From contig JANJWS010000022.1 in the NCBI GenBank assembly GCA_024709425.1, positions 1-64,000 of the forward strand: DNA of 64,000 nucleotides. The letters run 5' to 3'. This document shows positions 37,824 through 40,886 of this stretch, piece by piece. Position 1 is the first letter of the stretch. The number at the start of each line of letters is the position of its first letter. The notes under the pieces were generated by a model. The model was not told where the DNA came from, made no database searches, and saw nothing but the letters and a program-made list of their open reading frames with translations. Both the position numbers and the translations under genes were made by a program. This stretch comes from Thiobacillus sp. GTDB lineage: Bacteria; Pseudomonadota; Gammaproteobacteria; Burkholderiales; Thiobacillaceae.

Positions 37824-40800
37824 ATGCCGACGATCATTCCGCACCTCGCGAAACGGCCGCCGGCCGCCTGGCTGCTCGCATGGGCGCTACTGTTCGCGTT
37901 GCTGCCTTGCCTTGCCGAGGCGGCACGGGATATTTCGCCGCAGCGGGAATGCGCGACCTGTCACGTCATGTGGCTGGTCGACTTCAATCGCAAGGACGTC
38001 ACGCCGCTGATCACCCACGATCCCAAGCCCGTGGTCGAGACCGGCAGGCAGGATGCGGCGAGTACCGACCGCATGTGCTTTTCCTGTCATGACGGCTTCG
38101 TCCTGGATTCGCGTTTCGCTTGGCAGAACCGCAGGAACTTCCACCCCATCGGGGTGAAGCCTTCCGGCAAAGTCAACATTCCGACGGTCGACGGCAAGCA
38201 GCTGTTTCCGCTCAACGAGGACGGCAAGGTGTATTGCGGCACCTGCCACAGCGCGCATGGGGTGGAGTGGGGCGAGAAGCGCTCGCCGGTGTTCCTGCGC
38301 ATGAAGAACGTCGATTCCAGCCTGTGCATGGGCTGTCACCTGGAACGCGGCACTGGACCGGATGAGGGCAACCACCCCGTTTTTCGTCCCATGAAGGAGA
38401 TCCCGAACGCGCTGACCCGGGCGGGTGCGCGTTTTGGCAGCGGGAACAACGTCATCTGCCAATCCTGCCATCTCGTTCACGGCGCACCGGAGCGCAAGCT
38501 GCTGGCGGTGAAGAATCCCAATTCCGAACTGTGCGGGACCTGTCACGCGGACCGCAATGCGCACACGCTTGCCGAGGCGGGCCGCTTGGGGACCCATCCG
38601 GTGAACGTCCGGCCCGACAAGGTCAAGATCCCGGGGACGCTGTTCGAGCAGGGGGCGAAGCTGGGCGAGGGCGGCACGGTGATCTGCCAGACCTGCCACA
38701 AGCCGCATTTCGCGGAAGAGGGAGCGCGGATCCTTGTCGCCCCCAATCCGCAGTCCCAGCTGTGTCTGACCTGTCATGTCGGGCAGCGCAGCGTGGCGAC
38801 GAGCAAGCACAACATGGCGCTGGTGAATGCGGCCGACCGCAACGCGCGCGGCCAGGAGGTGGGGCGTGCCGGGGTGTGCAGCGCCTGCCACGTGCCACAT
38901 GGCGGGCAGGGTCCGAAGATGTGGGCGCGTGCGGTCAAGCCGGGCGATGAGCCGGTGTCCGACCTGTGCCTGACCTGCCACACGGACGGTGGCCTGGCTG
39001 CCGAGCGGCAGGTCGGCACGCACACCCATCCGGTGGGACGCGAGATGGCGCGTCTCGGTGGTGCGGTGGAGCTCCCGGGCTACACGGGCGAAGGCGTCAA
39101 GTCCGTGGGCGACGGCAAGGGCCGGGTTGGCTGCGCCAGCTGCCACGACCCGCACCAGTGGGATCCGCGCGATCCGGACAAGGCATCCAAACCCGGCGAT
39201 CCCGGCAGCGGCGCCGACAGGTTCCTGCGCAAGCCCAACGGCCCGGAGGCGGCGCTGTGCCTGACCTGCCACCGGAACAAGACCGGTGTCGTCAATACCA
39301 AACACGACCTCGCCGTGATGGCGCCGGACGCCCGCAACATGCGTGGCCAGACGCCGGCAGAGGCTGGCGTGTGCGCCAGCTGCCACGTTCCGCACAACGG
39401 TCAGGGACCGCGCATGTGGGCGCGTGAGGTACTGGCGGGAACCGACCCCGCTTCGTCCTCCTGCCTCAACTGCCACAACGCCGAGGGCCTCGCGCGCAAC
39501 CGGACCGTCGGTGCCAACAGCCATCCGCTCGATGTGCCGATCGAGCGCATCGGCATCACGGCGAAGGACGGGCAGTGGGCGTTGCCGACACAGGCGGCTG
39601 CCAGGCCGGCGGTCGCGCTGCCGCTGTACGATCCGCATGGCGTGCCCGCCACGCAAGGCGGCAACGTGGCCTGCGGCACCTGCCACGACCCCCACAACTG
39701 GGCGCCTGGCACCAAGGCCCGGCCGGCCGGGGATCCACGCACGACCCGGGGCACGGGCGAGACGAGCTTCCTGCGCCTGCCCAACGACAACAAGGGTACG
39801 CTGTGCGCCAACTGCCACGTCGACAAGGGGCCGATCGCCCTGTCCAAGCACAATCTCGCCATCTCGGCGCCCACCGCGAAGAACCTGCAGGGGCGCACCA
39901 CGGCGGAGACCGGCGTGTGCGGAGCCTGCCATCTGCCGCACAACGGCAACGGCGCCAAGATGTGGGCGCGGGACACCGGGCCGGGGCAGGACGGGATCGA
40001 GGTGCTGTGTGCGGAGTGCCACCGCGACGGCGGCATGGCGGAGAAAAAGCAGACCGGCACCAACAGCCACCCGCTGCGCGTGGATCTCGCGAACACCGGC
40101 GGCCACACCACGCTGCCGCTCTTTACCGCCGACGGAAAGAAGGAACCGGCCCGCGGCAAGGTGGCCTGCGCCACCTGCCACGACCTGCACCGGTGGGATC
40201 CGGTGAACCCGGCCAGCAAGGCCGGGGCGCGGGCCGACGTGGAGGGCGGGGCCGCCGACAGTTTTCTGCGCGTGCCGGCCTGGCCGCAGCCGGCGCTGTG
40301 TGCCGAATGTCACCCCAACAAGCAGCAGGTGAAAGGCACCGACCACGATCTCGCCGTCACCGCGCCAGACGCGACCAATGTGCGGGGGCAGAATGCCCAG
40401 GCGTCCGGTGTGTGCGGGCAGTGTCATATGGTGCACAACGCAGCGGTCCAGGCTCGCCTGTGGGCGCGCCCGGCGGGCGAGGGCAAGGATGTGATGGAGG
40501 GTTTGTGCCGTTCCTGCCACGCCCCCGACAAGGTGGCCGCCGCAAAGCTGCCGCGGCAGGGCAGCCATCCGTCCACCGTCAACGTCATCTCCAATGCGGG
40601 CAACCGGCGTGAACAGGGCGGGCATTTCCCGGTCTTCACGCCCGAGGGCGCGCGCAGCGGTTCGGGGATCATTTCCTGCCCGACCTGCCACAACGCGCAC
40701 CAGTGGAGCCCACAGAAGGCGGAGGCGGGCGAAGGCGGCAACGTCGAGGGCGATGCACGCAACAGCTTCCTGCGCAACACCAGCGATTTTTCACTGTGCG

Positions 40801-40886
40801 CCGATTGTCACGGCATGGATGCCTTGTTCCGCTACAAGTATTTCCACGGCGATATGTCGCGCCGCAAGCATCTGCTTTATCGATGA
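37824..40886 (+). CDS. 24-heme c-type cytochrome with internal tetraheme repeats
   Basis: 1020 aa, signal peptide 'WLLAWALLFALLPCLAEA', 24 CXXCH motifs counted; start 37824 rather than ORF start 37413. Confidence 0.93.
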   Translation: MPTIIPHLAKRPPAAWLLAWALLFALLPCLAEAARDISPQRECATCHVMWLVDFNRKDVTPLITHDPKPVVETGRQDAASTDRMCFSCHDGFVLDSRFAWQNRRNFHPIGVKPSGKVNIPTVDGKQLFPLNEDGKVYCGTCHSAHGVEWGEKRSPVFLRMKNVDSSLCMGCHLERGTGPDEGNHPVFRPMKEIPNALTRAGARFGSGNNVICQSCHLVHGAPERKLLAVKNPNSELCGTCHADRNAHTLAEAGRLGTHPVNVRPDKVKIPGTLFEQGAKLGEGGTVICQTCHKPHFAEEGARILVAPNPQSQLCLTCHVGQRSVATSKHNMALVNAADRNARGQEVGRAGVCSACHVPHGGQGPKMWARAVKPGDEPVSDLCLTCHTDGGLAAERQVGTHTHPVGREMARLGGAVELPGYTGEGVKSVGDGKGRVGCASCHDPHQWDPRDPDKASKPGDPGSGADRFLRKPNGPEAALCLTCHRNKTGVVNTKHDLAVMAPDARNMRGQTPAEAGVCASCHVPHNGQGPRMWAREVLAGTDPASSSCLNCHNAEGLARNRTVGANSHPLDVPIERIGITAKDGQWALPTQAAARPAVALPLYDPHGVPATQGGNVACGTCHDPHNWAPGTKARPAGDPRTTRGTGETSFLRLPNDNKGTLCANCHVDKGPIALSKHNLAISAPTAKNLQGRTTAETGVCGACHLPHNGNGAKMWARDTGPGQDGIEVLCAECHRDGGMAEKKQTGTNSHPLRVDLANTGGHTTLPLFTADGKKEPARGKVACATCHDLHRWDPVNPASKAGARADVEGGAADSFLRVPAWPQPALCAECHPNKQQVKGTDHDLAVTAPDATNVRGQNAQASGVCGQCHMVHNAAVQARLWARPAGEGKDVMEGLCRSCHAPDKVAAAKLPRQGSHPSTVNVISNAGNRREQGGHFPVFTPEGARSGSGIISCPTCHNAHQWSPQKAEAGEGGNVEGDARNSFLRNTSDFSLCADCHGMDALFRYKYFHGDMSRRKHLLYR
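38871..40886 (+). repeat. Four tandem protein-level tetraheme repeats inside the 24-heme cytochrome
   Basis: 'GVCxxCHxxHN...MWAR...LCxxCH...CxxCHDxHxW...LCxxCH' begins at 38871, 39366, 39912 and 40407; spacing 165, 182, 165 codons. Confidence 0.85.

Follow-up and report, generated by a model that had tools for sequence, protein, structure and literature searches.

In extracellular electron transfer, it is an open question whether electrons cross the periplasm with mobile carriers or along a fixed wire. The Uet and MHCR electron-uptake gene clusters provide the closest described points of comparison. Published Uet clusters encode an undecaheme cytochrome, a tetraheme cytochrome, three triheme cytochromes, a prolyl isomerase, NHL proteins and a barrel, and are reported from a cathode-oxidising lineage (PMC10734462). 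MHCR clusters have been described similarly, with multiheme cytochromes of 3–11 hemes and CcsXAB (PMC9751133), and clusters of the two types are known from Ca. Tenderia, Gallionella and Ca. Thiomicrorhabdus electrophagus (PMC10734462, PMC9751133). Larger cytochromes have been described elsewhere. The periplasmic cytochromes of the PCC3 system contain 21–27 hemes and internal repeats, and a periplasm-spanning role has been suggested for them (PMC5566968, PMC10734462); they have 22–39 residues per heme and a median of 26 (PMC5566968). GSU1996 of Geobacter is a single-chain periplasmic protein of four tandem heme domains, with a linear heme array in its crystal structure (PMC10138318). Finally, conduits with an undecaheme or more-than-20-heme cytochrome at their centre are mentioned in a metagenome study of karst (PMC13264449); cytochromes of this size are thus already on record as parts of conduits, and no analysis of them was found in the literature surveyed.

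Here we analyse a 24-heme c-type cytochrome encoded by an open frame with an ATG start in a 64,000-nucleotide stretch of Thiobacillus sp. DNA (contig JANJWS010000022.1), referred to as the window. The gene lies in a same-strand cluster at 27464–46103, the features of which are listed in Table 1 in their order on the DNA. An 11-heme cytochrome and NHL 6-bladed propellers are common to this cluster and the Uet/MHCR clusters, and ResB/CcsA biogenesis genes stand beside it, as they do in MHCR. The 11 CXXCH motifs of the undecaheme protein agree with UetJ, and the three NHL genes correspond to the propellers of the UetHI type; relatives of the 11-heme and NHL genes are present in clusters that fit the description of Uet (PMC10734462). 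The tetraheme and beta-barrel genes are candidate counterparts of UetA and UetC. A peptidyl-prolyl isomerase (UetB) was not recognised among the cluster open reading frames scanned with Pfam and NCBIfam. In contrast to Uet/MHCR, the Thiobacillus cluster additionally encodes the 24-heme protein itself and a module consisting of an 8-heme cytochrome, a 7-heme cytochrome, a cytochrome b and an anchored triheme cytochrome.

Table 1. Genes of the cytochrome cluster and subdivisions of the 24-heme protein (window positions)
Feature	Position	Strand	Remarks
NHL/6-bladed propeller protein	27464..28603	+	lipobox LVGC; cluster start, after terminator-like hairpin 27146-27169
Tetraheme cytochrome	28707..29402	+	resembles N-terminus of 11-heme protein; candidate UetA-like
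Outer-membrane beta-barrel	29411..31246	+	28 strands (AF2 model); C-terminal Phe; best PDB fold match MtrB
PQQ/BamB-type beta-propeller protein	31230..32345	+	
8-heme cytochrome	32332..33390	+	signal sequence
7-heme cytochrome	33465..34601	+	C-terminal membrane anchor
Inner-membrane cytochrome b561 / formate-dehydrogenase-gamma-like subunit	34667..35584	+	11 conserved His
Membrane-anchored triheme cytochrome	35802..36893	+	two N-terminal membrane segments
NHL propeller protein	36847..37818	+	immediately upstream of 24-heme gene
24-heme c-type cytochrome	37824..40886	+	1020 aa; signal sequence at N-terminus; lipobox and further membrane segments absent
N-terminal region, hemes 1-8	37950..38870	+	four-heme modules R1 and R2, both diverged and nearer to diheme units
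Tetraheme repeat R3, hemes 9-12	38871..39365	+	
Tetraheme repeat R4, hemes 13-16	39366..39911	+	
Tetraheme repeat R5, hemes 17-20	39912..40406	+	
Tetraheme repeat R6, hemes 21-24	40407..40883	+	includes conserved C-terminal tail RYKYFHG...SR.KH
NHL propeller protein	41096..42217	+	downstream of 24-heme gene
11-heme (undecaheme) cytochrome, UetJ-like	42284..44278	+	11 CXXCH
ResB/CcsA-type cytochrome c biogenesis pair	44269..46103	+	two genes

As counted in the initial annotation, the protein contains exactly 24 CXXCH motifs, compared with 0.12 expected and a maximum of 2 in composition-preserving shuffles, which amounts to 42.5 residues per heme. That annotation had divided hemes 9–24 into four tandem tetraheme repeats, and self-alignment had been set beforehand as a possible refutation. 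Each repeat does start where it had been placed, with GVC codons situated two ahead of hemes 9, 13, 17 and 21 and spacings of exactly 165, 182 and 165 codons. When hemes 9–24 are compared with themselves, the motif Cys and His being excluded, peaks appear only at heme offsets of 4 (mean +43.5) and 8 (+39.9), the other short offsets having means of -16 to -23. R3–R6 are 33–48% identical to one another in a multiple alignment, and with the heme motifs masked their pairwise scores lie 13 to 45 SD above shuffles, so both the repeats and their boundaries held. The limitation of the scheme to hemes 9–24 did not: with the same masking and shuffling, hemes 5–8 match R3 (z = 9.9) and hemes 1–4 match hemes 5–8 (z = 8.5), which allows the entire chain to be read as a series of six modules with four hemes each, of which R1 and R2 at the N-terminus are strongly diverged and diheme-like. 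Structural comparisons are less informative. The AlphaFold model has a mean pLDDT of 67 and a pTM of 0.54, the N-terminal 230 residues being poorly modelled, and a Foldseek search of the PDB with this model returned no fold match at E<=10, a result that is uninformative at such model quality; the model thus speaks neither for nor against a compact fold. No sequence match to the protein was obtained with phmmer against the PDB, where the family profile gives only short matches at heme motifs, and a DNA search of the plasmid collection yielded no copy of the gene.

A scan of 84,980 species genomes for homologs produced 57 loci, in Thiobacillus, Sulfurimicrobium, Sulfuritalea, Gallionellaceae, Noviherbaspirillum and many gammaproteobacterial MAGs, as well as in Nitrospirota, deltaproteobacterial MAGs and Neomarinimicrobiota. 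The gene is rare: among 55 other genomes within the genus 3 carry it, and among 398 other Pseudomonadota genomes sampled there was none. About half of the 57 loci encode 24 hemes, and others 18, 28 or 38. According to profiles of single diheme stretches, proteins with 18, 24, 28 and 38 hemes contain 3, 4, 5 and 7 tetraheme units, respectively, behind an N-terminal part of 6–8 hemes, with one more inserted diheme in the 38-heme protein (1639 aa, L025:8096-13015). The family thus forms a natural series built from one repeat, and the homologs of differing repeat number that had been proposed as a check do exist. In a further homolog (L040:9782-17362), the open frame runs to 2526 residues and includes a long stretch free of heme motifs in addition to 37 hemes. 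These 3–7-unit relatives support the earlier suggestion of growth by unit duplication, which has to be corrected in its timing. A tree was built from 60 repeats, taken from ten 24-heme proteins of distant homologs. In it the repeats group by position and not by protein: 100% of the bootstrap trees recover R1, R2, R4 and R6 each as a single group, the picture for R3 and R5 being less clean, and this grouping spans Pseudomonadota, Nitrospirota and one genome assigned to Myxococcota. Because repeats of distant homologs cluster in this way, the duplications are ancient: they built the 24-heme protein before the copies of these lineages diverged, and the 24-heme form, fixed in most full-length relatives, is now stable. 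Conservation is position-specific in every repeat, and both ends of the protein are conserved.

The same alignments bear on heme ligation. Among 26 homologs with 24 hemes, a non-motif His is conserved in 96–100% at 23 positions, which would be close to one distal His ligand per heme, as in bis-His wires. Heme 1, with the motif CATCHxMW, differs from the other odd-numbered hemes in lacking a His three residues past its motif; near it, the homologs have Tyr or His, and frequently Met. The count of 23 conserved His for 24 hemes, together with the missing downstream His, points to heme 1 as possibly the one heme among the 24 that is not bis-His. Residue 65, in the stretch of hemes 1–2 (window 37950-38030), is Tyr in most homologs and His in the window.

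With more than 20 hemes, internal repeats and a proposed role as a periplasm-spanning wire, the protein resembles the periplasmic cytochromes of PCC3 (PMC5566968, PMC10734462), and membership in that system has to be considered. It was rejected, however, and we regard it as very improbable: PCC3 cytochromes have far fewer residues per heme (22–39, median 26, versus 42.5 here; PMC5566968), the cluster content differs, and so does the inner-membrane partner. The PCC3 inner-membrane signature comprises two WX3HX13H and one SGXXG, whereas the cytochrome b of the window has a single HX13H (H115–H129) without the Trp, and SGSTF in place of SGXXG. The loci L051-L055, whose proteins have 26–28 hemes, matched at 22–25% identity and, with 25–27 aa per heme, are closer in heme density to PCC3-type proteins than to this family; they were kept out of the family alignments; they come from deltaproteobacterial and Nitrospirota MAGs, and several adjoin NHL-type propeller genes. 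The comparison with GSU1996 raises another alternative, namely that the 24 hemes store charge in the periplasm rather than bridge the membranes, as has been proposed for the Geobacter protein; such a role has been assigned to large soluble multiheme proteins of repeated domains (PMC10138318), and storage needs neither a fixed order nor tight packing. GSU1996 is a polymer of triheme c7 domains, every one of which includes a His-Met heme, whereas the repeat here is a tetraheme unit of CXXCHxPH motifs, so the protein is not a c7 polymer. The position-specific conservation of all repeats and both ends and the strict linkage to membrane electron-transfer genes described below are more in keeping with defined docking than with storage in bulk, so that we consider a capacitor improbable.

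This linkage is seen in the gene neighborhoods. Most loci whose flanks are long enough to show it share the order 7-heme cytochrome, cytochrome b, membrane triheme cytochrome, NHL protein, 24-heme protein, usually preceded by the 8-heme gene; they range from Thiobacillus to genomes of Nitrospirota, deltaproteobacteria and Neomarinimicrobiota. Within the genus, the 24-heme gene and the cytochrome b gene are co-inherited, occurring in the same four genomes, and a search of other genomes of the genus yielded no cytochrome b gene. The 7-heme protein and the cytochrome b may be counterparts of CbcA and CbcB of the Geobacter CbcBA-type inner-membrane complex. Two loci (L015, L016) contain second copies of the 7-heme, cytochrome b and triheme module, about 30% identical to the proteins of the window. 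At the outer membrane, the cluster resembles MtrCAB/MtoAB in that the best PDB fold match of the barrel model (28 strands, pLDDT 69.6, pTM 0.55) is MtrB (6r2q_B, E 2.5e-8), with low TM-scores of about 0.4; unlike in those systems, the barrel has no Pfam match and the genome encodes no decaheme MtrA/MtoA over the curated cut-off. The prediction supports an MtrB-like fold class and not detailed homology. A weak match to the barrel (24.6%, E 1.6e-5) adjoins an 11-heme gene in another locus (L081).

Taken with these neighbors, the signal sequence suggests that the 24-heme protein is periplasmic. We consider it, with a probability of about 0.6, to conduct electrons as a soluble multiheme protein of the periplasm, within a multi-gene outer-membrane conduit that most likely serves electron uptake feeding denitrification. 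The outer-surface module of the 11-heme, 4-heme and propeller proteins would sit on the MtrB-like barrel and pass electrons to the 24-heme protein, with participation of the 8-heme protein, which could equally be an outer-membrane plug or a bridge. The 24-heme protein would deliver them to the inner-membrane module of 7-heme cytochrome, membrane triheme cytochrome and cytochrome b, which would exchange electrons with quinones. A signal sequence without a membrane anchor is also compatible with secretion, and the protein might instead be exported through the outer membrane and lengthen the conduit on the outside, by itself or by forming a filament. The family profile does match PDB 7tfs ('Cytochrome c'), presumably the OmcE filament, but this match is weak, covers 50 aa and is limited to one short stretch around heme motifs; moreover, the most constant neighbors are inner-membrane genes, and an outer-surface role already fits the 11-heme and tetraheme proteins. 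We see little likelihood in such an extracellular conductor.

If the periplasmic conductor is extended, its dimensions would be appropriate. Known heme wires have 0.8–1 nm per heme and the periplasm is roughly 20 nm wide; 24 hemes in line would be about 19–24 nm long, near the periplasm width. The tetraheme repeat could then serve as a unit of length, of which lineages carry 3 to 7 copies. A more specific version, in which a wire of fixed length directly joins the quinone-reactive cytochrome b module to the MtrB-like conduit in place of the diffusible trihemes of Uet, with the copy number (3 to 7) set by the periplasm width of the lineage, is offered tentatively, the odds being against it. Its comparative basis is the distribution of trihemes. 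Two loci fetched via the 11-heme gene (L080, L089) contain triheme genes as well, L080 also with two NHL genes. A Uet-type triheme is found in 7 of 7 such 11-heme genomes and in 0 of 4 Thiobacillus genomes with the 24-heme gene, in which a search with the L080 triheme (UetDEG type) at E<=1e-8 gave no match. Conversely, six of the seven 11-heme genomes have no 24-heme gene, and the seventh (G583) has one on another contig. The hypothesis that the wire has replaced the carriers is advanced with reserve, because few genomes are involved and both the triheme and the 24-heme gene occur in G583; some gammaproteobacterial loci also encode an extra 3-heme protein beside the 24-heme-type protein, and carriers and wire are therefore not strict alternatives. 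As a Uet-like outer module stands beside the wire here and with triheme carriers in other bacteria, both the length of the wire and the choice between wire and carrier become directly testable.

The direction of electron flow is suggested by the host and the flanks. Upstream of the cluster, on the minus strand, lie narG, narH and narI together with genes for two MFS-like transporters (window 16685-26270), which may, judged by position, be nitrate transporters. Downstream (window 53781-63297) are a NosR-like gene, nosD, two nosL and a NosZ-like gene. The location between narGHI and nos genes suggests coupling to denitrification, and with RuBisCO in the genome the host looks like an autotrophic denitrifying Thiobacillus. 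The net direction would most likely be inward: electrons supplied by Fe(II) minerals, other solids or a partner cell would enter the quinone pool and be used in nitrate/N2O reduction, and the cluster would thus give a nitrate-respiring Thiobacillus a route to solid electron donors such as minerals or electrodes. The opposite direction, respiration of extracellular acceptors such as metal oxides or humics, draws on the reversibility possible in Mto/Mtr conduits (PMC10734462), on an undecaheme cluster reported from a manganese reducer (cited in PMC13264449), and on the existence of deltaproteobacterial homologs. It is nevertheless rather unlikely in a RuBisCO-bearing denitrifier with nar and nos genes around the cluster, and the related Uet cluster is reported from a cathode-oxidising lineage (PMC10734462). 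A gene for a GAF/HAMP/GGDEF diguanylate cyclase (window 50164-52332) separates the cytochrome cluster from the ccmI/nos genes.
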